Part shown: positions 4,528 to 64,000 of the stretch, piece by piece
Layout of the letters: the number at the start of each line of letters is the position of its first letter
Numbering within the stretch: position 1 is the first letter of the stretch
NCBI RefSeq assembly: GCF_011492945.1
Contig: NZ_CP045119.1
Coordinates: 4,278,001-4,342,000 of the forward strand
Direction: 5' to 3'
Length of the DNA stretch: 64,000 nt
Source of the DNA: Rubrobacter tropicus
Lineage (GTDB): Bacteria > Actinomycetota > Rubrobacteria > Rubrobacterales > Rubrobacteraceae
Translations under genes and position numbers: made by a program
Notes under the pieces: model-generated
Database searches by the model: none
Told to the model about the DNA's origin: nothing
What the model saw: the letters and a program-made list of their open reading frames with translations, nothing else

Positions 4528-6381
4528 ATGACCGAAGTTCCGTCGGTGCCCCTGATCCCACGCGAAGTTCTCTTCGGCAACCCGGAGAGGGTGAGCCCGC
4601 GTCTGTCCCCCGACGGCGAACGCCTGGCCTTCCTGGCCCCGAAGGACGGCGTCCTGAACGTGTGGGTGGGTCCTGTGGGGGCGCCGATAGGCGGCGGCGA
4701 GTTCGAAGCCGTAACCGACGACCGCAGGCGCGGCATCAGGCTCTTTTTCTGGGCCGAGGACGACGAGCACATCGTCTACCTCCAGGACGAGGGGGGCGAC
4801 GAGAACTGGCGAATCCACGCCGTCCGGCCCGCCACCAAAGAGGACAGGGACCTCACGCCCTTCGATAACGTGCAGGCCCAGATCCTGGAGAAAAGCCGCC
4901 ACTTCCCCGACTCGCTCCTCGTCGCCCTGAACCGGGAGAACCCCGAGCTCCACGACGCCTACCGCCTCACCCTCTCCACAGGCGAACTCGACCTCGTAGC
5001 CAAGAACCCCGGCGACGTGGTCGGCTGGGTCGCCGACAAGGACTTCGAGGTTCGGGCCGCGATGGCCGCAACACCCGACGGCGGCTTCGACCTGCTCCTG
5101 CGCGAGGGCGAGGAGTGGCGCCAGTTCCTGAGCTGGGACAAGGAGGACGCCCTTTCGAGCGGTCCCGTGGGCTTCGCGGAAGATGCCGGCAAGATGTACC
5201 TGCTCGACTCCCGGGGCGCCAACGCCGCCAGGCTGGTCCTGCTCGACCTCGAAAGCGGGGAGACGGAGGCTCTCGTCGAGGACCCGCGCTACGACGTCTC
5301 GGAGGTCATGGTCCACCCGGAGACCCACGCCGTTCAGGCCGCCGCGGTCCAGCGGGCGAGGACGGAGTGGATCCTGCTCGACGAGAAGCTCCGCGGCGAC
5401 TTCGAGTCCATAAAGAACCTCGGACGGGGGGATTTCACGGTAACGAGCCGCGACCGGTCCGACGAAAACTGGCTGGTCGCCGTGAACTCCGACGAAGGCG
5501 GGGCCTCGTACTTCGCCTACGACCGGCAAACGAGGCGCGGCGGGCACCTCTTCGACGCCAGGCCCGACCTCGCCGAGTACACCCTGGCGAAGATGGAGCC
5601 GGTCTCCTTCACCTCGCGCGACGGGCTCGATGTAGAGGGCTACCTGACGCTGCCGCCGGGCGTGGAGCCGAAGAATCTGCCGATGGTGCTCAACGTCCAC
5701 GGCGGGCCGTGGGCGCGGGACGGCTGGGGCTACGACCCGGAGGCCCAGTGGTTCGCCAACAGGGGCTACGCCTGCCTCCAGGTCAACTTCCGGGGCTCGA
5801 CCGGCTACGGCAAGGAGTTCCTGAACGCCGGCAACAAGGAGTGGGCAGGAAAGATGCACGACGACCTCGTCGACGCCGTCGCGTGGGCCGTGGACCGGGG
5901 TGTGGCCGACCCGGAGAAGGTGGCCATCTACGGCGGCTCCTACGGCGGTTACGCGGCGCTCGTGGGCGCCACGTTCACCCCCGACCTGTTCAGGTGCGCC
6001 GTCGACATCGTGGGGCCTTCCAACATCATCACGCTCATAGAGAGCGTCCCGCCGTACTGGAAGCCGCTAATCGCGACCTTCACCGAACGCGTCGGCAACC
6101 CCGAGACCGAGGCCGACTTCCTCAAGAGCCGCTCTCCGCTGTTCTTCGTCGATAACATAAAGATACCGCTGCTCATCGCGCAGGGCGCGAACGACCCCCG
6201 CGTCAAACAGGCGGAGTCAGAACAGATAGTCGCCGCCATGAAAGAACGAGGCATCGACCACGAGTACCTGCTCTTCGAGGACGAGGGCCACGGCTTCGCC
6301 CGCCCCGAAAACCGCCTCAAGTTCTACGCCGCGGCCGAAGAGTTCCTGGCAAAGCACCTCGGAGGGAGGACAGAAGGGTAG
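4528..6381 (+). CDS. S9 family prolyl oligopeptidase-like peptidase
   Basis: 617 residues. An N-terminal beta-propeller (about residues 20-340, with SPDGERLAF and TDDRRRGIR blades) precedes an alpha/beta-hydrolase domain. The nucleophile is Ser471 in GGSYGGYA. Asp in NDPRV and His in GHGFARPEN complete the triad. HGGPWARDGWGY is the oxyanion region. This is the acylaminoacyl/dipeptidyl peptidase type acting on short peptides, probably cytoplasmic because no signal peptide is seen. The ATG at 4528 follows GAGAGAGAT. A palindromic repeat begins 6 nt after the TAG stop. Confidence 0.93.
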   Translation: MTEVPSVPLIPREVLFGNPERVSPRLSPDGERLAFLAPKDGVLNVWVGPVGAPIGGGEFEAVTDDRRRGIRLFFWAEDDEHIVYLQDEGGDENWRIHAVRPATKEDRDLTPFDNVQAQILEKSRHFPDSLLVALNRENPELHDAYRLTLSTGELDLVAKNPGDVVGWVADKDFEVRAAMAATPDGGFDLLLREGEEWRQFLSWDKEDALSSGPVGFAEDAGKMYLLDSRGANAARLVLLDLESGETEALVEDPRYDVSEVMVHPETHAVQAAAVQRARTEWILLDEKLRGDFESIKNLGRGDFTVTSRDRSDENWLVAVNSDEGGASYFAYDRQTRRGGHLFDARPDLAEYTLAKMEPVSFTSRDGLDVEGYLTLPPGVEPKNLPMVLNVHGGPWARDGWGYDPEAQWFANRGYACLQVNFRGSTGYGKEFLNAGNKEWAGKMHDDLVDAVAWAVDRGVADPEKVAIYGGSYGGYAALVGATFTPDLFRCAVDIVGPSNIITLIESVPPYWKPLIATFTERVGNPETEADFLKSRSPLFFVDNIKIPLLIAQGANDPRVKQAESEQIVAAMKERGIDHEYLLFEDEGHGFARPENRLKFYAAAEEFLAKHLGGRTEG

Positions 6382-6410
6382 GAGAGCTGTCAGCTATCAG
6401 CGGTCAGCTT

Positions 6411-6593
6411 TCAGCGAGGGGGGATGGGCCGGACTTTTTCGGGGCGGGTTTCGTCCTCCAGGAGAGGTGAGATCACCGATTCGACCCAGGCCGCGTCGAC
6501 GCCCATGCGGCGCGACACCTCGTCTACCCGCATCCCGGATCGCCACAACCGCTCGGCCTCTTCGGCCAGGCATACTTCCCCATGCTCCTCCAC
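6411..6593 (-). CDS. Small putative helix-turn-helix protein
   Basis: 60 residues. The GTG at 6593 is preceded by a strong AGGAGG with 6-nt spacing, which supports real translation. The centre (AEEAERLWRSGMRVDEVSRRMGVDAAWVESVI) has the spacing of a compact helix-turn-helix with a Gly in the turn. The tail is basic and proline-rich. The last codons and the TGA fall in a TCAGC-type repeat that follows the S9 peptidase gene. I cannot assign it to a family; a DNA-binding role is inference. Confidence 0.6.
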   Translation of the reverse strand: MEEHGEVCLAEEAERLWRSGMRVDEVSRRMGVDAAWVESVISPLLEDETRPEKVRPIPPR

Positions 6594-7261: not shown

Positions 7262-8065
7262 ATGCGCTTCACGAAGATGCACGGCGCGGGCAACGATTTC
7301 CTGATCTTCGACCCGGGTGAGGTTCAGGAGGCGGATCTGCCGACGCTCGCCCGCCGCTCCTGCGACCGGCACTTCGGAGTCGGGGCCGACGGTATCCTCG
7401 TCCCGGTCCCAACCCCGGACGCCGACCTCGAGATGGTCTACCTGAACTCCGACGGCTCGTACTCGGAGATGTGCGGCAACGGCCTGCGCTGCCTGGCCCG
7501 CTACGCAAGGGATTACGAGATCGTTGAGTCTGACGCCCTCACAGTCGCCACCGGGGCGGGAATAAAGAAGGTCATCCTCTTCGAGGACGGCTCCTCGCGG
7601 GTCGACATGGGCCCGCCATCTTTCGCCCAGGAGGTCGAGGCCGGCGGCTTCCGCCTCCTTCGGGTCTCCATGGGCAACCCGCACGCGGTCGCGTTCCTGC
7701 AAGACCCCGGAGACCTCGAAGCGTTGGACCTCCGCGACATCGGGCCGCCGCTGGAACGCGACCCGCTCTTCCCGGAGGGTACGAACGTCGAGTTCGTCCA
7801 CGTCAGGGGCGGGCACGCGGTACGAATGAGGATCTGGGAACGCGGCGCCGGCGAGACGCTCGCCTCCGGCTCGGGCTCGTGCGCGGCCGCGGTGGCCGCG
7901 ATAAAGCTCGGCCTCGCCGAAAGCCCCGTCAAAGTCCACCTCGACGGCGGCGTGGTGGAGATAGCGTGGTCCAAAGAAGGCGAGCCAGTCTACATGACGG
8001 GCCCCGCAGAGTACGTCTGCGAGGGAGAGCTTGTCAGCATTTCAGCCGGTCAGCACTTCAGCTAG
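7262..8065 (+). CDS. dapF: Diaminopimelate epimerase
   Basis: 267 residues. Converts LL- to meso-diaminopimelate, supplying lysine and peptidoglycan. The N terminus MRFTKMHGAGNDF is diagnostic. The first catalytic Cys is in SEMCGNGLRC (about residue 70) and the second in ERGAGETLASGSGSCA. The ATG at 7262 was chosen over an in-frame upstream extension because family members begin here. The last residues (about SISAGQHFS) and the TAG stop are encoded by a TCAGC-type repeat, so the C terminus appears to have been rewritten by repeat insertion. Confidence 0.95.
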   Translation: MRFTKMHGAGNDFLIFDPGEVQEADLPTLARRSCDRHFGVGADGILVPVPTPDADLEMVYLNSDGSYSEMCGNGLRCLARYARDYEIVESDALTVATGAGIKKVILFEDGSSRVDMGPPSFAQEVEAGGFRLLRVSMGNPHAVAFLQDPGDLEALDLRDIGPPLERDPLFPEGTNVEFVHVRGGHAVRMRIWERGAGETLASGSGSCAAAVAAIKLGLAESPVKVHLDGGVVEIAWSKEGEPVYMTGPAEYVCEGELVSISAGQHFS

Positions 8066-8165
8066 TCAGCACTTCAGCTTTTTCCTGACGGGCTGAGAGC
8101 GAGGGCCGCGTAGCGGGCCGACGCGTGCTGACGAGCGGAGGCGACGGTCGGAGCGGGCTGACAAG
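8038..8165. repeat. TCAGC-type palindromic repeat between dapF and response regulator
   Basis: The spacer between convergent genes repeats CAGCATTTCAGC, TAGTCAGCACTTCAGC and GACGGGCTGAGAGCG, then ends GCGGGCTGACAAGCTA. The left end encodes the last residues and TAG of dapF. The right-end CTA is the stop codon (TAG) of the minus-strand gene. Confidence 0.7.
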
Positions 8166-8819
8166 CTACTTCAGCTTCACGAGGCCGTGGCGGGCGGCGA
8201 AGAGGAGGGCTTGCAGCCGGGAGTGGACGCCGAGCTTGTTCAAGATGTTCATCATGTGGGTGCGTTCGGTATCGACGCTCATGTGGAGGCGGGCCGCGAT
8301 CTCCTTGTTGGAGAGGCCTTCCGCGAGGGTCTGGAGCACCTCGCGTTCGCGGGGCGTGATCTGCTCCAGGCTCATCCGCGCTTCGCGCTCTTCTTCGCGG
8401 CTCCGGCCGGCGATTCGGAGGAACTCGACGAGTTCCTGGGGGGAGAGGAGGGTCTCCCCGGAGGCCAGGCGCCGCGCCGCGCCGAGGATCTCGTCCACGT
8501 CGGCGGACTTGTGGAGGACGCCCGCCGCCCCGGCCTCGACGGCCCTGGCGTGCTCCGCCTTGTCCAGGCTGGCCGTCAGGATGAGGGCTATGAACTCCCG
8601 GTTGACCCCGCGCAGTTCCCGGATCAACTCGACGCCCTCCCCGTCCGGCAGGGAGAGGTCTATGACGCCGAGGTCGGCCTCCAGGCCCACCGCGTCCCGC
8701 CGGGCCTCGGCCAGCGACCCGACCTGGGCGACGACCTCGAACTCGGGCTCTTGATCGAAGATGAACGCGAGCGTCTGCCTGAACGAAGCGTGGTCCTCGA
8801 CGAGCAAGATTCGCTGCAT
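8166..8819 (-). CDS. NarL/LuxR-family response regulator
   Basis: 217 residues. The receiver domain (residues 1-120) has acidic ED at 8-9, phospho-acceptor Asp54 in VIDLSLPDG, T/S in LILTAS and a Lys in LHKSAD. The LuxR-type helix-turn-helix (about residues 150-210) has LTPREREVLQ-like ITPREREVL, LSNKEIAARLHMS and LGVHSRLQAL. The ATG at 8819 follows GAAAGGAAAGAA. It lies 95 nt downstream of a histidine kinase gene on the same strand, its probable partner. The stop TAG abuts a repeat. Confidence 0.92.
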   Translation of the reverse strand: MQRILLVEDHASFRQTLAFIFDQEPEFEVVAQVGSLAEARRDAVGLEADLGVIDLSLPDGEGVELIRELRGVNREFIALILTASLDKAEHARAVEAGAAGVLHKSADVDEILGAARRLASGETLLSPQELVEFLRIAGRSREEEREARMSLEQITPREREVLQTLAEGLSNKEIAARLHMSVDTERTHMMNILNKLGVHSRLQALLFAARHGLVKLK

Positions 8820-12736: not shown

Positions 12737-13006
12737 CAGCACGCCGGCTTCGCCGGCTTTCAGCACGCTCCGGCTTCGCCTCCGCTCTCGGCACGCTCCG
12801 GCTTCGCCTCCGCTCTCGGCACGCTTCGGCCCGCTCCGCGGGCCTCGCTCCCAGCCGGTCAGCTTCTTGCCGCGCAATACCCAACCGGACAGCGCTCTGC
12901 GCGGCGGTTCGGATGTCGCGATGCGTAACGCACACAGACGACCGGCTGACAGGCTGAAAGCCCCCGGAGGGGGCGTGCTGAAAGGCGCGGAGCGCCGGGC
13001 TGACTA
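12737..13006. repeat. Long dispersed palindromic repeat, copy 1
   Basis: The arms carry CAGCACGCTCCGGCTTCGCC words on the left and GAAAGCCCCCGGAGGGGGCG and GGGCTGACTAGCT on the right. They surround a non-palindromic core with CAGCTTCTTGCC, GCGGTTCGG and CACACAGACGACCGGCTGAC. The same arm-core-arm plan occurs at 15304-15597, 24296-24564 and 63258-63452. It ends 3 nt before the stop codon of the permease gene. Confidence 0.75.
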
Positions 13007-13009
13007 GCT

Positions 13010-13873
13010 CTACGTGTATATGTCTCTGTGGCGGAAGGCGGGGACCGCCAGCAGCACGAGCGCTACGGCGACGAGCGTTAGGCCCCAGAAGTTCGTCCAG
13101 TCGATGCCATCTTCTATTGCGGAGCCATAGTAGTAGAAGGCCGAGGCGGGCTGGAGGTCTTCGAGATCTTCGGAGACGCGGCCGAGCGTGTCGAGGAGGT
13201 ACATGGCGAAGAGGAGGAAGGCCGGGATGGCTATGGCCAGGGCCCGGCGGTGGAAGACGGCCGAGCAGAGCATGGCGGCGGCACCGAAGACGAGGCAGAG
13301 GGGCCACATGTTCAGGACGGCGGCGGCCGTGTTGGCGACGGGGAGGTTTACGTCCATCAGGAAAGCCGTGGCCTGAGTCAGGACGCCCATGAGGGCAAGG
13401 ATGGCCAGCAGCGAGAAGGCCATGGAGGCGAAGCTCCCGACGACGAGTTGCCAGCGCGGGATCGGGTTGCCAAGCAGGACGTCTATGGTGCCACGCTCCT
13501 CGGCGCCCGCTATCGTCCCGGCCGCCGCCAGGATCGGGAAGAACGCGAGCGCCAGCGGGGCGAGCAGGAACACCTGGGAGTTCATGTAGTTCTCGACGTC
13601 GGCGAGGTCCGTGATCCCGAACGCCTCCAACATCCCTTCGGGGTAGGCTTCCAGAAGCTGGTTCATCTGATCCGCGCTCCCGCTGAACGTGGTGAACGAG
13701 GCGACTATCGCCGCGCTGTAGAGACCGAGCGCCGCCCCCCAGATGAGCGCGCCCCTCGACTGCATCTTCGTGGTATGAAAGACGAGCGCCGAAAGCGTCG
13801 TCAGCGGCGCGGCCCGCCTGGCCGAGTGCTTTCCCCGCCCGCCAGCCTTCCGCAAGCCCAACACACCCATCAC
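13010..13873 (-). CDS. ABC exporter permease (ABC-2 type)
   Basis: 287 residues with about six hydrophobic segments (for example ALIWGAALGLYSAAIVA, VFLLAPLALAFFPILAAAGTIAG, LVVGSFASMAFSLLAILALMG, WGLTLVAVALVLLAVPAF). The EERGTIDVLLGNPIPRWQLVV coupling segment after the third helix is typical of ABC-2 permeases. The GTG start forms a GTGA overlap with the upstream ATPase stop. With the ATPase and GbsR-like regulator it forms a three-gene drug- or lipid-exporter-type operon; the substrate is unknown. Confidence 0.88.
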   Translation of the reverse strand: MMGVLGLRKAGGRGKHSARRAAPLTTLSALVFHTTKMQSRGALIWGAALGLYSAAIVASFTTFSGSADQMNQLLEAYPEGMLEAFGITDLADVENYMNSQVFLLAPLALAFFPILAAAGTIAGAEERGTIDVLLGNPIPRWQLVVGSFASMAFSLLAILALMGVLTQATAFLMDVNLPVANTAAAVLNMWPLCLVFGAAAMLCSAVFHRRALAIAIPAFLLFAMYLLDTLGRVSEDLEDLQPASAFYYYGSAIEDGIDWTNFWGLTLVAVALVLLAVPAFRHRDIYT

Positions 13874-15303: not shown

Positions 15304-15597
15304 AGCACGGCGCTGCGCGCCTCTCAGCACGCTCCGGCTTCGCCTGCGCTTTCGGCACGCATCGGCCTGCTACGAGCAGTCCTCGCTTTCAGCCTGTCAG
15401 CTTCTTGCCTCGCAAGGCCAGACCGGGCGGCGCAAAGCGTGGCGGTTCGGGTGTAGCGGGGCGTTATGTCCAAAGACGACTGGCTGAAAGCCTCCGTAGG
15501 AGGCGTGCTGAGAGCGAGGGCCGCAAGGCCCGAAGCGCGCTGAGAGCGGAGCCCTTAGGGCGTAGCGGGCTGACGAGCTGCCCGTAGGGCGGCGTGC
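15304..15597. repeat. Long dispersed palindromic repeat, copy 2
   Basis: Arms with CAGCACGCTCCGGCTTCGCC and GCCTGCTACGAGCAG on the left, and GAGGGCCGCAAGGCCCGAAGCG and GGGCTGACGAGCTGCCC on the right. The core has CAGCTTCTTGCC, GACCGGGCGGCG and CAAAGACGACTGGCTGAAAGC. No gene is visible in this stretch of about 300 nt. Confidence 0.75.
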
Positions 15598-20512: not shown

Positions 20513-20714
20513 TTTAGCGGCGTGCATGGGGTATGAACCTGGAGTTGGCAAGGTCTTGAGGTTTTGAGGCATCGAGGTCTCGAGGGGCGCGCCACGAAAC
20601 CAAGAGAAAGTCCCGGCCCTCCACCCCTAAAAGCCTCCAGAACCTGAAAGCCTAAAAACCTCCCTACCTCGTGGCCCGTTCGCGACGGGCCCCATCCTTC
20701 CGCAAACCGCTGTA
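20513..20714. repeat. Terminal-inverted-repeat element, inverted copy B
   Basis: The interior GAGGCATCGAGGTCTCGAGG is the reverse complement of the inner part of the element at 19617. The right end is CATCCTTCCGCAAACCGCTGTA. The left boundary (TTTAGCGGCGTGCA) is approximate. The copy at 57278 has the same orientation as this one. Confidence 0.75.
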
Positions 20715-20752: not shown

Positions 20753-21718
20753 GTGGCGGTTGACTTCGGGGTGTTCGTGCCGCAGGGCTGGCGGATGGAC
20801 CTCGTTGGGATAGAAGATCCCTACGAGCAGTACGAGGCGATGACGCGGGTGGCGAAGGTCGCGGACGGGACCGGCGCCTACGATTCCATCTGGGTCTACG
20901 ACCACTTCCACACCGTCCCCGAACCGACCAGGGAGACCACCTTCGAGGCGTGGACCATAAGCGCCGGGTTGGCGCGGGACACAGATAGGGTCAAGATCGG
21001 GCAGATGGTCACCTGCAACGGCTACCGCAACCCGGCGCTGCTGGCCAAGATGGCCTCGACGGTCGACGTCATGAGCAACGGGCGGCTGCTCTTCGGGCTC
21101 GGGGCCGGCTGGTACGAGCACGAGTGGCTCGCCTACGGCTACGGCTTCCCCGAGGTACCCGTCAGGATGCGCATGTTCAAGGAGGCGTGCGAGATCATCC
21201 ACCGCATGTTCACCGAAGACGACCTCGTCTTCGACGGCGAGTTCTACAAACTGGACAAACCGATAAACGAGCCAAAAGGCGTGAGCGAACCGCACCCGCC
21301 GATCTGGATCGGGGGCGGCGGCGAAAAAGTAACCCTGAAGCTCGTGGCCCGCTACGGCGACGCCTGTAACGTCGGCGGCGATATCGACACCCTCAAACAC
21401 AAGTTCGAGGTTCTAAAAGGCCACTGCGAGAACGAGAACCGCCCCTACGAAGACATCACCCGCTCCACCTCCATAAACGCCTACCTGCTCGAACCCGGCG
21501 AGAACCCCGAAGAAGCGACCAGAGAGGCCCGCGGCCCCAAGAGCTACGACGAGTACAGCCAGGAGTTCATGGTAGGCACCGCAGACGAGATCGTAGAACG
21601 CCTCCAGCCGATGGCCGACGCGGGCGTCAACTACTTCATAGCCTACCTGCCCCGCGTCGCCCACGAGCCCGAGATGGTCGAGCGCTTCGCGAAAGAGGTA
21701 GTGCCAGCGGTCTCCTAG
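20753..21718 (+). CDS. LLM class F420-dependent oxidoreductase
   Basis: 321 residues, luciferase-like (beta/alpha)8 barrel. FGVFVPQGW at the start, SIWVYDHFHTVP near residue 45, GLGAGWYEHEW near residue 115 and HPPIWIGGGGEKVTLKLVARYGDACN near residue 185 match the TIGR03560/F420 branch. It probably uses reduced or oxidised F420 as hydride carrier; the substrate is unknown. The GTG at 20753 has GAGAGGGGG upstream. A TCAGC-type repeat starts a few nt after the TAG. Confidence 0.88.
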   Translation: MAVDFGVFVPQGWRMDLVGIEDPYEQYEAMTRVAKVADGTGAYDSIWVYDHFHTVPEPTRETTFEAWTISAGLARDTDRVKIGQMVTCNGYRNPALLAKMASTVDVMSNGRLLFGLGAGWYEHEWLAYGYGFPEVPVRMRMFKEACEIIHRMFTEDDLVFDGEFYKLDKPINEPKGVSEPHPPIWIGGGGEKVTLKLVARYGDACNVGGDIDTLKHKFEVLKGHCENENRPYEDITRSTSINAYLLEPGENPEEATREARGPKSYDEYSQEFMVGTADEIVERLQPMADAGVNYFIAYLPRVAHEPEMVERFAKEVVPAVS

Positions 21719-21721
21719 AAG

Positions 21722-21837
21722 AGTCAGCCTGTCAGCACTTCAGCTAGTCAGCACTTCAGCTTCTTGCTGACGGGCTGAGAGCGGGGCCTGCGGAGCGGGG
21801 CGAAGCGGGGCGATGCGGGCTGACCGGCTGACGGGCT
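21722..21837. repeat. TCAGC-type palindromic repeat
   Basis: Carries GTCAGCACTTCAGC twice, then GCTGACGGGCTGAGAGCGG and GCGGGCTGACCGGCTGACGG. It fills the gap between two convergent genes and closely resembles the dapF spacer at 8038. Confidence 0.7.
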
Positions 21838-22206
21838 CTACCCGGCCGGCTTCTCCACCCATTCAGGTTCCGGCGTTATGTTCGGCTCCGGCTTGTTGCC
21901 CGGTCCGTCGAGGCCCGTGGAGGTGACGGTCATCAGGGGACGGACCTTTATGTCGTGGTCGCAGACGGCCTGGCAGGAGAGGCGGACCTCCCCAAGAAGG
22001 TTGCGGCTCTGGAGGACTTCGAGCTCGGCCCGCGTCATCCGGTCGGGTTCGCCTTCGAGGTACTCGATGCGACAGGTGGTGCACTTGGCGTACGCGCCGC
22101 AGCGGTGGAGGATGTCGACGCCGGCGTCCTCCTCGATGGCGAGGACCAGCCGCTTGCCCTCCCCGACGTCGAAAGTGCCAGCGCCTTCTACTTCGATCCT
22201 GGGCAA
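21838..22206 (-). CDS. 2Fe-2S plant-type ferredoxin
   Basis: About 122 residues. The cluster motif is CGAYAKCTTC (C-x5-C-x2-C) with the fourth Cys in RLSCQAVC, and the fold matches an adrenodoxin/chlorosome-like [2Fe-2S] ferredoxin. I prefer the TTG at 22206 because GGAAAGGA lies 6 nt upstream. An ATG at 22233 exists but its codons (M-A-E-S) are derived from a TCAGC-type repeat. The Pro/Glu-rich C-terminal tail is not conserved. The redox partner is unknown. Confidence 0.85.
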   Translation of the reverse strand: MPRIEVEGAGTFDVGEGKRLVLAIEEDAGVDILHRCGAYAKCTTCRIEYLEGEPDRMTRAELEVLQSRNLLGEVRLSCQAVCDHDIKVRPLMTVTSTGLDGPGNKPEPNITPEPEWVEKPAG

Positions 22207-24295: not shown

Positions 24296-24564
24296 CGCTT
24301 CAGCCCGCTGCGCCCTGCTTCGCAGGACTCCGCTTGTCAGCCCGGCGCTTCGCGCCTCGTCAGCCCGCTCCGGCTTCGCCTGCGCTCTCAGTTTCTTGCC
24401 GGGTGAGGCCCGACCGGGTAGCGTTATAAGTGGCGGTTCCAGCGTCGTGAAGAGCAACGTGTACAGACGACTAGCTGACAAGCTGAAAGCGAGGGCCGCA
24501 AGGCCCGAAGCGTGCCGAGAGCGGAGCCCTGCGAAGCAGGGCGCAGCGGGCTGACGAGCCGCCG
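24296..24564. repeat. Long dispersed palindromic repeat, copy 3
   Basis: Arms with CGCCCTGCTTCGCAGG and CAGCCCGCTCCGGCTTCGCC on the left, and GAGGGCCGCAAGGCCCGAAGCG and GCCCTGCGAAGCAGGGCGCAG on the right form long stems. The core has CAGTTTCTTGCC, GACCGGGTAGCG and GTACAGACGACTAGCTGAC. It lies between two convergent genes and encodes the last residues of the minus-strand hydrolase. Confidence 0.75.
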
Positions 24565-33357: not shown

Positions 33358-34560
33358 TTGACGCACGTACACTTCCAGCCCGTCGGCGGCGCCGCCGGCG
33401 ACATGACCCTCGCCAGCCTCATCGCGGCGGGTGCGCCGCCGGAAGAGATCACGGCCTCCCTCGGCCGTCTGAACGTCCCCTTCGAACTCTCGACCGAGAA
33501 CGCCGAGGTCAACGGCGTGGGCGCGCTCAGGGTCTCGGTCCACAGCCCCAAAGAGCACGCGCACCGCGATTTCGCGACCATCCGTACCCTGATAGAAGGA
33601 GCGGATCTGCCCGAGAGGGCGGCCTCGCGCTCCGTCGAGGCGTTTCGCCGGTTGGCGGTCGCCGAGGGCGCGGTCCACGGCGTCGACCCGGAGAAGGTGA
33701 CGTTCCACGAGGTCGGGGCCGTCGACTCCGTAGTGGACGTGGTGGGGAGCTGCCTCGCCCTCGAACTCCTCGACGCTTCCTCCGTAACCTGCGGTCCGCT
33801 GCCGATGGGCACGGGCGTCGTCAGGGCGGCCCACGGCGCGCTCCCGGTCCCCGGTCCGGCCACGCTGGAGGTCCTCAAGGGATCCAAGATCCGATGGACG
33901 GAAGAGCCCCGCGAGACGACCACCCCGACAGGCGCCGCGCTGATGAGCGCCTTCACCAACGGCCTCTTTACGGACGCCCCCCCGCCGATGACCCTGGTCT
34001 CCATCGGTTACGGGGCGGGCCGCGCCCGGCTCCGAAACGCCCCCAACCTGTTGCGGGCCGTGGTCGGCGAACTGGAGGGAACCGCCGAGGATCTGGAACT
34101 CTTGGAAGCAAACGTGGACGACGCGCCGGGCGAGCTTCTCGGCCCCGCGACGGAGAAGCTCCTGGCCGCAGGCGCCCTCGACGCCTGGCTGGAACCGATA
34201 ACCATGAAACGGGGCCGCGGAGCCTACAAGGTCTGCGCCCTCGTAAAAAGCGTCGACAGGGAACCCATGTCTCGCCTCCTGATGCGCGAGACCGGTACTT
34301 TAGGCGTCCGCCACCGCGGCGTCGGCCGCACCGTGGCCGAGCGCCGACACGCCACCGTGGACCTCCCCTACGGCCGCTGCCGCATCAAAATAGGAAGCCT
34401 GGACGGCCAGGACTTCGTGGCCTCCCCCGAGTTCGCCGACGCGTCCCGCCTCTCCTCCGAAACAGGATTGCCGCTGCCCCAGGTCTACGCCGACGCGAAG
34501 GCCGCGTACGCTGCCAGCTATCAGCTTGCAGCTATCAGCCGTCAGCAAGAACGCCCGTAG
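33358..34560 (+). CDS. larC: Nickel-pincer cofactor biosynthesis protein LarC
   Basis: 400 residues. The VHFQPVGGAAGDMTLASLI start, KVTFHEVGAVDSVVDVVG near residue 120, TPTGAALM near residue 195, VSIGYGAGR and the C-terminal LEANVDDAPGELLG and MKRGRGAYKV segments are LarC landmarks. LarC inserts nickel into the pyridinium dithiocarboxylate cofactor with CTP hydrolysis. larB, larE and lactate racemase are not in the window. The TTG at 33358 starts with T-H-V-H-F. About 12 C-terminal residues (SYQLAAISRQQE) are repeat-derived. Confidence 0.9.
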   Translation: MTHVHFQPVGGAAGDMTLASLIAAGAPPEEITASLGRLNVPFELSTENAEVNGVGALRVSVHSPKEHAHRDFATIRTLIEGADLPERAASRSVEAFRRLAVAEGAVHGVDPEKVTFHEVGAVDSVVDVVGSCLALELLDASSVTCGPLPMGTGVVRAAHGALPVPGPATLEVLKGSKIRWTEEPRETTTPTGAALMSAFTNGLFTDAPPPMTLVSIGYGAGRARLRNAPNLLRAVVGELEGTAEDLELLEANVDDAPGELLGPATEKLLAAGALDAWLEPITMKRGRGAYKVCALVKSVDREPMSRLLMRETGTLGVRHRGVGRTVAERRHATVDLPYGRCRIKIGSLDGQDFVASPEFADASRLSSETGLPLPQVYADAKAAYAASYQLAAISRQQERP

Positions 34561-34671
34561 CCGAAACCGGCCACGCAAGACCAGCCAAAAGCTGACAGGC
34601 TGAAAGCGAGGCCTGCTCGTAGCAGGCCGAAGCGTGCTACGAGCGGAGGCGCAGCCGGAGCGTGCTGAAAG
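34508..34671. repeat. TCAGC-type repeat overlapping the 3' end of larC
   Basis: CAGCTATCAGCTTGCAGCTATCAGCCGTCAGC lies inside the larC reading frame. GCTGACAGGCTGAAAGCGAG, GCCTGCTCGTAGCAGGC and GCGTGCTGAAAGCTA follow. The right-end CTA is the stop codon of the minus-strand cold-shock gene. It sits between convergent genes. Confidence 0.7.
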
Positions 34672-34875
34672 CTACAACGGCGTTACGTTCGACGCCTGCG
34701 GCCCCTTCCTGCCTTCGGACGGCTCGTAGGAGACTTTAGAGCCCTCCTCCAGGCTCTTGAAGCCGCTTCCCGCTATGCCTGAGTAGTGGACGAAGAGATC
34801 CTCGCCTCCGTCGTCCGGGGAGATAAAGCCGTAGCCCTTCTCGTCGTTGAACCACTTAACCGTTCCCTGGGCCAT
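34672..34875 (-). CDS. Cold-shock protein (CspA family)
   Basis: 67 residues. A single OB-fold domain with both RNA-binding motifs: [10 protein letters not shown] (RNP1) and DLFVHYS (RNP2). The start [17 protein letters not shown] is the usual family start, so I chose the ATG at 34875; a GTG 15 nt upstream is possible. It acts as an RNA chaperone. The stop TAG is supplied by the edge of the repeat downstream of larC. Confidence 0.95.
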
Positions 34876-37371: not shown

Positions 37372-38784
37372 ATGCCAGAAGACAAGAGCATCCAGGAGCT
37401 TGGGCTCGACGAGTACAAGTACGGCTTCAGCGATCCTGAGGAGTACTTCTTCAAGACCCCGAGGAAGGGGATAGACCCCGAGATCGTCGCCATGATCTCC
37501 AAGCACAAGAACGAGCCCGAGTGGATGCTGGAGTACCGCTTGAAGGCCCTGGAGTCTTTCCTCGAGCGTCCGACCCCGCAGTGGGGCGGCGACCTCTCGG
37601 AGCTGGATTTCGACGAGATCTACTACTACATCCGCCCGATGGAGAACCAGGGCCGCTCCTGGGACGACGTCCCCGACGACATCAAGAACACTTTCGAGAA
37701 GCTGGGCATCCCGCAGGCCGAGCGCGAGTCGCTCGCCGGCGTCGGCGCCCAGTACGAGTCGGAGGTCGTCTACCACTCGTTGAAGGAGGAGTGGGACAAG
37801 GCCGGCGTCGTGTTCATGGACATGGACTCGGGCCTGCGCGAGCACGAGGACCTCGTGCGCGAGTACTTCGGGACCATCATCCCGGCCGACGACAACAAGT
37901 TCTCGGCGCTCAACAGCGCGGTCTGGTCTGGCGGCTCGTTCGTGTACGTCCCGCCGGGGGTCCACATCGACATCCCGCTGCAGGCGTACTTCCGCATCAA
38001 CGCGGAGAACATGGGCCAGTTCGAGCGGACCTTGATCATCGCCGACGAGGGCTCCTACGTTCACTACATCGAGGGCTGCACGGCGCCCACGTACACCACC
38101 AACTCGCTCCACTCGGCCGTCGTCGAGCTCATAGCGAAGCCGAACGCGCGCATCAGGTACTCGACCATCCAGAACTGGTCGCACAACACCTACAACCTGG
38201 TGACCAAGCGCGCGGTCGCCGAGGAGAACGCCACCGTGGAGTGGGTAGACGGCAACCTCGGCTCCAAGCTCACCATGAAGTACCCGGCGGTCTACCTGAC
38301 CGGCGAGGGCGCCCGCGGTGAGATCCTGTCGGTTGCTTACGCCGGCGACGGCCAGCACCAGGACGCCGGCGGCAAGGTCGTCCACGCAGCACCCAACACT
38401 TCCTCGCTTATCACCTCCAAGTCCATCTCCAAGGGGACGGGCAGGAGCACGTACCGCGGGCTCCTCAAGGTGCACGAGGGGGCCGTCGGCTCCAAGAGCC
38501 GGGTCGAGTGCGACGCGCTGCTCCTCGACGAGAACGCGCGGACGGACACTTATCCGTACATCGAGATCGAGGAGAAGAAGGTCAACACCGAGCACGAGGC
38601 AACGGTCTCGAAGGTCGGGGAGGACCAGCTCTTCTACCTCATGAGCCGCGGGCTCTCGGAAGAAGCCGCGATGGCGATGGTCGTCAACGGGTTCATCGAG
38701 CCCATAGCCAAGGAGCTTCCGCTCGAGTACGCCATCGAGTTGAACCGCCTGATCCAGCTCGAGATGGAAGGTTCGGTCGGGTAG
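37372..38784 (+). CDS. sufB: Fe-S assembly scaffold SufB
   Basis: 470 residues. SufB landmarks are [20 protein letters not shown]-like N-terminal helix, the central beta-helix with [28 protein letters not shown] (conserved Cys implicated in cluster assembly) and [21 protein letters not shown] with [13 protein letters not shown] at the C-terminal core that contacts SufC. It begins 15 nt after sufC. A TCAGC-type repeat and a terminator-like hairpin follow the stop. Confidence 0.96.
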
Positions 38785-38852
38785 AGCCGGTAGGCTAGTC
38801 AGCATTTCAGCCGGTCAGCTCCCTGGCCGGTCACCGAGGGACGATTAGCAGT

Positions 38853-38884
38853 GGGGCGGGTCCCAAGTGGGCCCGCCCTTTTTG
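38853..38884 (+). terminator. Intrinsic terminator or attenuator between sufB and sufD
   Basis: GGGCGGGTCCCA-AG-TGGGCCCGCCC, an 11-bp stem with one bulged T, followed by TTTTT. It stands 69 nt after the sufB stop and 22 nt before the sufD ATG, so sufD and downstream genes would be expressed by read-through. Confidence 0.75.
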
Positions 38885-57277: not shown

Positions 57278-57449
57278 CTATGCCGGGTTGCGTAAGGACC
57301 GGACCTGGAGGTTCGTGAGGCATCGAGGTTTTGGGGGGTGCGTCTCGGAACCCCGGGGAAGCCCCGACCCTCCGCCCCTGAAAGCCCTGGAACCTCCGTG
57401 ACTCGTGGTCCGTTCGCTTTGGGCCCCATCCTTCCGCAAACCGCTGTAG
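57278..57449. repeat. Terminal-inverted-repeat element, GAGG family copy
   Basis: GGGTTGCGTAAGGA on the left and TCCTTCCGCAAACCGCTGTAG on the right are inverted repeats. The interior GAGGCATCGAGGTTTTGGGG and GTTCGCTTTGGGCCCCATCC matches the element at 20513 in the same orientation. A short TCAGC-type piece (GAAAGGCGCGAAGCGCCG) follows up to 57500. Confidence 0.7.
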
Positions 57450-63257: not shown

Positions 63258-63452
63258 GCAGCACGCTTCGCCCTTCGGGCTCCGCTCTCAGCGCGCTGCA
63301 GCCTTCGGCTTTCGCTCTCAGCACGCCTGCTTCGCAGGCTTTCAGGTAATCGTCTGTGGACGCTACGCCCGGCGACACTCTAATCGTCGTGTGTGGCGCT
63401 GTCCGGTCCGGCTCCGCGTGGCTGAAAGCGAGGCGGAGCCGGAGCGGGCTGA
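63258..63452. repeat. Long dispersed palindromic repeat, copy 4 (inverted core)
   Basis: CAGCACGCTTCGCC and TCAGCGCGCTGCAGCC words on the left, GCCTGCTTCGCAGGC, a core AATCGTCTGTGGACG that is the reverse complement of the core in the other three copies, and a right arm GAGGCGGAGCCGGAGCGGGCTGACTAGCT. It fills the gap between two convergent genes; the CTA at its right edge is the stop of the next gene. Confidence 0.7.
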
Positions 63453-64000
63453 CTAGCTTCCCTTCACCGGGATCTCCACGCCTTCGAAGGAGCCGTCGCG
63501 GGCGCTTGTGGTGCCGACTTGCAGGGCGCCCTTGCCCGAGAACGGCGGCAGGTCCAGGGTCGCCTCGAAGTAGCCCCAGGTGGTGCTCCAGTCGTTGGCG
63601 GTTACGGTCTCGCGGACGAGCTCCTTGCCCCTGGCGTCTCTGAGTACCACGGTGTTGGCCGCCTCGAAGTTGCGGGAGTAGCCGCTGACGGTGAGGGGGT
63701 CGGAGACCCTGGCCCCGGGGCGGGGCTCGACGAGGACGGTGTTTCCCCCCGCCGCCGGTTGGGGTTTCTTCAGGGGCGTCCCCGCTGGCTTGAAGTCGAC
63801 CACGAGGCGGGCCGGGTCGGCGAGCTCCAGCGTCCGGTAGCGGAAGGACTTCCGGGCCAGCAGGTCCACGAACATGCCGCCCTCGGGGGCGCGTACGACG
63901 TGGAAACCTTCCATCAGGCCTTTTCCGAAACCCCCGTCCGAGACGCCCGTGGCGCTGGCTGAGGGAAGTTGAATCCTGGTCAGGCCGTCTCCTTTAGGGC
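63453..64000 (-). CDS. Gmad2/AMIN-like domain protein, 3' part (cut by window edge)
   Basis: The open frame enters from the right edge and encodes about 180 residues ending at a TAG. The visible part has an AMIN-like stretch (RYRTLELADPARLVVDFKPAGTPL), then a Gmad2 immunoglobulin-like domain (VEPRPGARVSDPLTVSGYSRNFEAANTVVLRDARGKEL, ...WGYFEATLDLP) as found in spore-germination and other wall-associated proteins. A methionine at 63914 is internal, not the start. The stop codon is in the repeat edge. Confidence 0.8.
   Translation of the reverse strand, partial: PKGDGLTRIQLPSASATGVSDGGFGKGLMEGFHVVRAPEGGMFVDLLARKSFRYRTLELADPARLVVDFKPAGTPLKKPQPAAGGNTVLVEPRPGARVSDPLTVSGYSRNFEAANTVVLRDARGKELVRETVTANDWSTTWGYFEATLDLPPFSGKGALQVGTTSARDGSFEGVEIPVKGS

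Follow-up and report, generated by a model that had tools for sequence, protein, structure and literature searches.

Heptameric repeats of sequence GGGAATC / GGGGA(C/T)T have been described in Xanthomonas and Nostoc, on the coding strand, no further than 50 bp from the stop codon and in inverted pairs (Rehm et al. 2015, PMC4692102); distances are given there in 50-bp classes only, and the sections consulted report no stop-codon bias. The TCAGCNN repeat of Rubrobacter tropicus is alike in its tandem 7-nt unit, its coding-strand position near stops and its inverted pairs, whereas the Xanthomonas and Nostoc heptads are G-rich and quadruplex-forming and TCAGCNN, which is without a G-tract, cannot form a quadruplex, has two free positions, is found ≤6 nt from the stop 5 to 10 times as often as expected and favours TAG. 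Another heptamer, TAACTGA, is repeated in Beggiatoaceae and cyanobacteria with a patchy distribution across distant phyla and no known mobilising mechanism (MacGregor 2015, PMC4679880). Both heptamers are patchy across phyla, but the TAACTGA repeats of Beggiatoaceae are for the most part found shortly before a start codon, and TAACTGA repeats are direct and not inverted, with fixed unit letters.

The REP / BIME palindromes, tagged by GTAG or CGTC, are for the most part located downstream of genes and in intervals that separate genes of convergent or unidirectional orientation (Di Nocera et al. 2013, PMC3733652). The TCAGCNN arrays are likewise dispersed repeats downstream of genes, in convergent and tandem regions; REPs, however, are single tagged hairpins of 20-40 bp, with GTAG families linked to RAYT transposases, whereas oriented heptad arrays, with paired arms around loops or cores of ~10-125 nt, and no RAYT gene are found here, the two being set apart by their layout and not by scoring of the GTAG/CGTC tags. 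In E. coli, numerous REPs are found no further than ~15 nt from a stop codon and influence translation. Inverted ends around a conserved core (81 nt in one family here, 85 nt in the distant genome G042) partly recall MITEs; in the present case, however, no target-site duplication was detected, the ends consist of arrays, the core is unique or one arm is lacking in many copies, and no transposase partner was found. The repeat is thus distinguished from its known relatives by the TCAGCNN unit, a precision of a few nucleotides and the TAG bias. A literature search on the repeat letters returned no related work among titles and abstracts, and no Rfam family matched the window above its gathering score.

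TCAGCNN elements of the window and their layout

The window is the whole stretch of 64,000 nucleotides that was analysed (positions 4278001-4342000 of a 4.38 Mb contig; genome, 4.58 Mb). A preliminary description had reported repeats adjoining stop codons at a series of loci, each of which was inspected, the offset being the number of nucleotides between the stop and the nearest downstream TCAGC in sense orientation. The reading of all these loci confirmed the adjoining repeats, with offsets of 0-14 and, in the case of dapF, with the TAG inside the array. The features are listed below.

6390-6415 (+): four-unit TCAGC array, 8 nt past the stop TAG (6379-6381) of the gene 4546-6381
8031-8165 (no strand): composite element between dapF and the regulator, made of a left sense array of 8-nt units (~8031-8077), a short loop, a hairpin module and a GCTGA-type right arm adjoining the regulator stop; fold -68.9 kcal/mol, z -3.84
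8063-8065 (+): dapF stop TAG inside the array (AGCTAGTCAGC), which starts at ~8031 within the coding frame
8166-8168 (-): regulator stop TAG, followed by CTTG-TCAGC, offset 4
12945-13009 (-): GCTGA-type arm, which reads as sense TCAGC relative to the permease, of the element past the permease stop TAG (13010-13012), offset 6 (TAG AGCTAG TCAGC)
21719-21837 (no strand): element spanning the entire interval between the LLM gene (stop TAG 21716-21718, +, offset 5) and the ferredoxin-like gene (stop TAG 21838-21840, -, offset 6); fold z -3.04
34516-34671 (no strand): element abutting the stop TAG (34672-34674, -) of the cold-shock gene, offset 3; its left arm overlaps the 3' end of an ORF ending at 34560
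38785-38819 (+): single-sided sufB array directly 3' of the stop TAG 38782-38784, offset 14, with repeat-like AGCCGG from +1
38852-38883 (+): GC hairpin and T-run downstream of the sufB array, terminator-like as read from the sequence
63422-63455 (-): array edge CTAGTCAGC; the TAG within it (63453-63455) terminates an ORF that continues beyond the end of the window, offset 0
12838-12955, 15376-15493 and 24367-24484: members of a MITE-like family whose arms flank a conserved ~81-nt core (TTCTTGCCGCGCAG...GACGACTG-like), present in many copies in the genome

In most cases the unit is the heptad TCAGCNN, that is TCAGC followed by two freely varying letters, and some arrays are built of octads, as in dapF. 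A periodic run at lag 7 was detected in 27 of the 60-mers taken past stops versus 0 coding controls. Arms are either single or in inverted pairs, and the initial designation as a palindromic repeat fits the pairs and not the many single-sided arrays, the basic unit being an oriented tandem array. The order of paired arms is always TCAGC followed by GCTGA, the reverse order never being found at short range. Their spacing is mostly 0-20 nt or 80-125 nt, the longer class corresponding to the 81-nt core family or to unique stretches of 84-125 nt. These unique cores (L002:3167, L025:17716, L048:3076, L033:9465 and ~15 more) nearly fill their intergenic regions, and only two arm pairs of this type in the sample are spaced by 130-400 nt. 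Their interpretation as captured DNA was rejected, as they have no homologs in the sample and several hold native-looking terminators; they may be ordinary intergenic sequence flanked by two arrays.

Two further repeats were observed. The first is a long and regular one-strand tandem array of ~30 alternating TCAGCTA and TCAGCGG units in the same genome (C1:762712-762919). The second is a separate dispersed repeat of ~150 nt ending in GCAAACCGCTGTA, located at positions 20565-20714 and 57316-57448 of the window.

Placement at stop codons and bias towards TAG

The distances were analysed in a sample made of the window and 60 evenly spaced stretches of 20 kb (1.264 Mb, 28% of the genome). Genes were called with a purpose-written frame-specific Markov model (1,208 genes, 84% coding), and ortholog alignments support the gene ends discussed here. 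An array was defined as at least two units, which gave 257 arrays in intergenic DNA. Several cut-offs (array definition, distance classes) were picked after inspection of the data and the p-values are therefore descriptive.

TCAGC on the coding strand becomes about ten times more frequent over the 30 nt that follow a stop, with counts of 99, 101 and 106 in the first three 10-nt bins past 1,154 stops versus ~5-13 per bin before the stop. The outer edge faces a stop codon in 197 of the 257 arrays and 48 of these, all sense-oriented, start at ≤6 nt from it. Random placement over all intergenic DNA predicts 4.8 ± 2.2 such arrays, and when each array is instead re-placed inside its own intergenic interval the prediction is 9.7 ± 3.1, the highest of 500 trials giving 19. 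An excess over both nulls is also present at 12 and 30 nt, so that its size does not depend on one cut-off. A start codon is faced by the outer edge of 60 arrays, of which not one is ≤6 nt from the start and a single one is ≤12 nt from it. The stop-flush placement is real, genome-wide and far above chance, and the earlier statement that it is more precise than an intergenic location demands is upheld by a 5-fold to 10-fold excess over the nulls. The array density is 4.6 per kb in convergent regions, ~1 in tandem regions and 0.26 in divergent ones. In tandem gene pairs less than 50 nt apart, TCAGC occurs within 40 nt of the stop in 1 case out of 223; operon-internal junctions are nearly array-free.

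The stop codon is TAG in 60 of the 75 genes with an array at offset 0-6 (80%) versus 467 of 1,094 elsewhere (~43%, p=2e-10), and a weaker bias is seen at 7-30 nt (57%, p=0.03). The junctions are phased: TAG-CNN-TCAGC (19 cases), TAG-AGCNN-TCAGC (16), TAG-TCAGC (13) and TAG-CNNN-TCAGC (8) are the commonest letter classes at offsets 3, 5, 0 and 4, respectively. A TAG is located within 8 nt of the array edge at 45 of the 63 stop-proximal ends and at 9 of the 111 other ends, and this scarcity away from stops indicates that TAG is not an inherent end of the element. CTAG lies directly at the array edge at 9 of the 63 stop-proximal ends (1 of the 111 ends away from stops), which speaks against it as a general target or junction. 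Of the targeting suggested initially, the placement at gene ends stands, together with a TAG bias found mainly in flush arrays, and CTAG as a general target is without support.

Stop codons in sister species and distribution in other phyla

The orthologs of sufB, the LLM gene and dapF were sought in eight genomes of the same genus, and a wider set of genes was compared via reciprocal best hits. The sufB stop is the identical codon in every complete copy read. After this same TAG, an array is found in the R. tropicus genome (G000) and an array of different sequence in G006, the copies of G004, G005, G007 and G001 being array-free. The SufB proteins of these four genomes are closer to that of G000 than the G006 protein is; these identities, which are not a tree, suggest that sufB may have gained arrays twice independently. 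A GC hairpin with a T-run is located 3' of sufB in most relatives, array or no array. For the LLM gene, G004, G005, G003 and G002 have their stop at the same codon or at one next to it, and in G005 and G003 (L202, L204) another heptad family, of AGGTTNN type, starts right after the LLM TAG, with an inverted copy downstream. The regulator stop is shared with G004 and G003, whose 3' sequence is unrelated, and the stop of the gene 4546-6381 is conserved in G004, where the array is absent. For the permease, the regulator, the cold-shock gene and others, reciprocal best hits show that array-free relatives share the stop position.

Since array-free orthologs have the same stop, the stop is probably older than the array in most cases and the array lineage-specific, an order of TAG before array that is supported by a handful of ortholog pairs. 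As most relatives are without arrays, array turnover appears to be fast. The intergenic DNA of the available relatives is too diverged to provide an exact empty site for a base-by-base view of the insertion junctions. In dapF, the G004, G005 and G003 proteins end at codon 259 (..CEGEMLG* or ..CEGELLG*), and an element follows the native TAG in G003 and G005. In G000, the frame enters the array and the protein reaches 267 aa (..VSISAGQHFS*). dapF is exceptional in that the array has taken the place of its native end and provides the stop.

The preliminary description had suggested that the repeat often forms the TAG itself; this applies to a minority (the offset-0 cases and dapF), the TAG being usually the gene's own stop. 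In the ortholog comparison that it had proposed, repeat-free orthologs keep their stop positions, and the repeat thus mostly does not create the stop. Such shared positions, in combination with random repeat-to-stop distances, had been named there as evidence to the contrary; the shared positions were found and random distances were not seen. Its interpretation is partly supported and survives in a narrowed form.

In other phyla, TCAGCNN is multi-copy, often in inverted pairs, in 20 of 20 genomes chosen for at least one match (G041-G060, several phyla; e.g. L072, L077, L116, L138). Up to 1,469 matches were counted in one cyanobacterium, the reversed pattern being near zero; these whole-genome counts with the reversed-pattern control are the usable result, the contig scan alone being weak as ~480 chance matches are expected in it. 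Among genomes not chosen for matches, TCAGCNN is rare, being present in 7 of the 39 of a cyanobacterial sample (the starting genome included) and in 3 of the 60 of a sample of the own phylum (G000 included). In the distant genomes G042 and G053 (400 kb each), the arrays favour convergent regions and are not flush with stops: G042 has 0 arrays within 12 nt of a stop and G053 has 3 versus 1.5 expected within 6 nt. The congeneric G006 has a small flush excess (4 versus 0.7 expected within 6 nt). In G042, the arms flank one conserved 85-nt core in 13 copies (e.g. L287:5680), with variable heptad spacers at both ends, so that the spacers change faster than the core. It is conceivable, though quite improbable, that the arrays of cyanobacteria, Nitrospira, Planctomycetota, Acidobacteria, Deltaproteobacteria, Bacteroidia and the Rubrobacter lineage form one horizontally spread class, whose mobilising system would recognise TCAGC iterons and, in the Rubrobacter lineage, target positions just past TAG stops.

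Explanations of the flush placement

Placement, orientation, TAG bias, identical stops in array-free orthologs and turnover between species are direct observations, and the flush position itself would come from a preference at insertion and not from later selection. We give a probability of about 0.4 to this reading as a whole, in which the elements insert preferentially just past TAG stops and are tolerated there, and place it slightly ahead of a retained function at the 3' end. The repeats would be non-autonomous elements scattered over the genome, with oriented arrays of TCAGCNN heptads, or of octads, forming their ends, either as inverted pairs or as single arms. Their entry would strongly prefer the first few nucleotides past a stop codon, TAG in the main, where a transcription unit ends, and they would persist there because this stretch contains no coding sequence, promoter or ribosome-binding site. 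The stop would mostly be older than the array; in a minority of cases, the array would invade the last codons and bring a new in-frame TAG.

This insertion preference is favoured by the fast turnover, the recurrent occupation of one stop by unrelated sequences and the TAG bias. The flush excess over both nulls, with no array ≤6 nt from a start, argues in the same direction, as do the facts that TAG is not an inherent element end and that the stop is the same in array-free relatives, and the constant polarity from TCAGC to GCTGA. Against it stand the absence of target-site duplications and of Y1/RAYT or other machinery among what was found, and the missing flush placement in G042 and G053 despite the same heptads. 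The search for a RAYT / Y1 transposase (Y1_Tnp, PF01797) gave 0 candidates in G000 and positive results in control genomes, and RAYT-driven REP mobilisation was rejected on this result. No target-site duplication was found at the elements, and apparent duplications of 3-4 nt fall at symmetric AGCNN/NNGCT positions and resemble the palindrome itself.

The orientation of the arrays and their enrichment between convergent genes fit equally well with selection for an RNA function at the 3' end, exerted by sense arrays just past the stop and by the long hairpins of paired arms (protection or definition of the mRNA end, slowing or termination of the polymerase, or insulation of convergent genes), in which only stop-adjacent copies work and persist. 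The order of densities, highest in convergent and lowest in divergent regions, is the same in G006, G042 and G053, single arrays of tandem intergenic regions are sense in 24 cases and antisense in 8, and positions recur across species with differing sequences. Two-arm elements also fold better than shuffled sequence (z -3.84, -5.76 and -3.04; one single-sided array, -1.78). The spacer dinucleotides of opposing arms, however, do not covary (12 matches out of 95 versus 13.2 expected), which speaks against a pairing of the arms through their spacers, and no extra structure is seen over the 40 nt past the stop (p=0.12). Terminator-like hairpins are not depleted behind flush arrays, with 14% in both classes in convergent regions and 30% versus 12% elsewhere in tandem ones, and sufB has a canonical terminator plus an array; a simple replacement of terminators was rejected on these grounds. 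The absence of covariation, of terminator depletion and of added structure speaks against the arrays being simply terminators, and the pure terminator role contained in the earlier proposal of a terminator or mRNA-end function is not supported, the sufB terminator being present regardless of the array. Most arrays are, in addition, not conserved between sister species, and selection for a 3'-end function is considered somewhat less likely than the insertion preference.

Neutral insertion anywhere in intergenic DNA, followed by purging of the copies that hit genes, promoters or ribosome-binding sites, explains why arrays keep away from starts, from divergent regions and from the short junctions of operons. 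It is disfavoured and judged improbable: re-placement within the same region falls far short of the 48 arrays observed, promoter-free convergent regions are also skewed (62 ends ≤10 nt from the stop versus 32 expected in the first test, carried out on these regions only) and the TAG bias is left unexplained. That the repeat makes the stop, an array landing in a gene end and the frame halting at the array's TAG, describes a minority class consistent with the extended dapF frame (267 versus 259 aa) and with the 13 genes in which TCAGC immediately follows TAG, several of them with repeat sequence upstream of the stop too, but it is very unlikely as the explanation and is ruled out as a general rule by the array-free orthologs sharing the stop at sufB, LLM, permease, regulator, cold-shock and other genes, TAG being moreover no feature of array ends away from stops.

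The TCAGCNN arrays provide a sharply quantified case of a stop-adjacent repeat with controls in sister species, in which the clustering of bacterial repeats at gene ends becomes testable as insertion preference versus selection at the mRNA end. A single degenerate heptad also turns up in phyla unrelated to one another, for which no cause is known. If the targeting is true, the site preference of these elements would be defined by stop codons, and misses would add or replace C-terminal residues, as in dapF.
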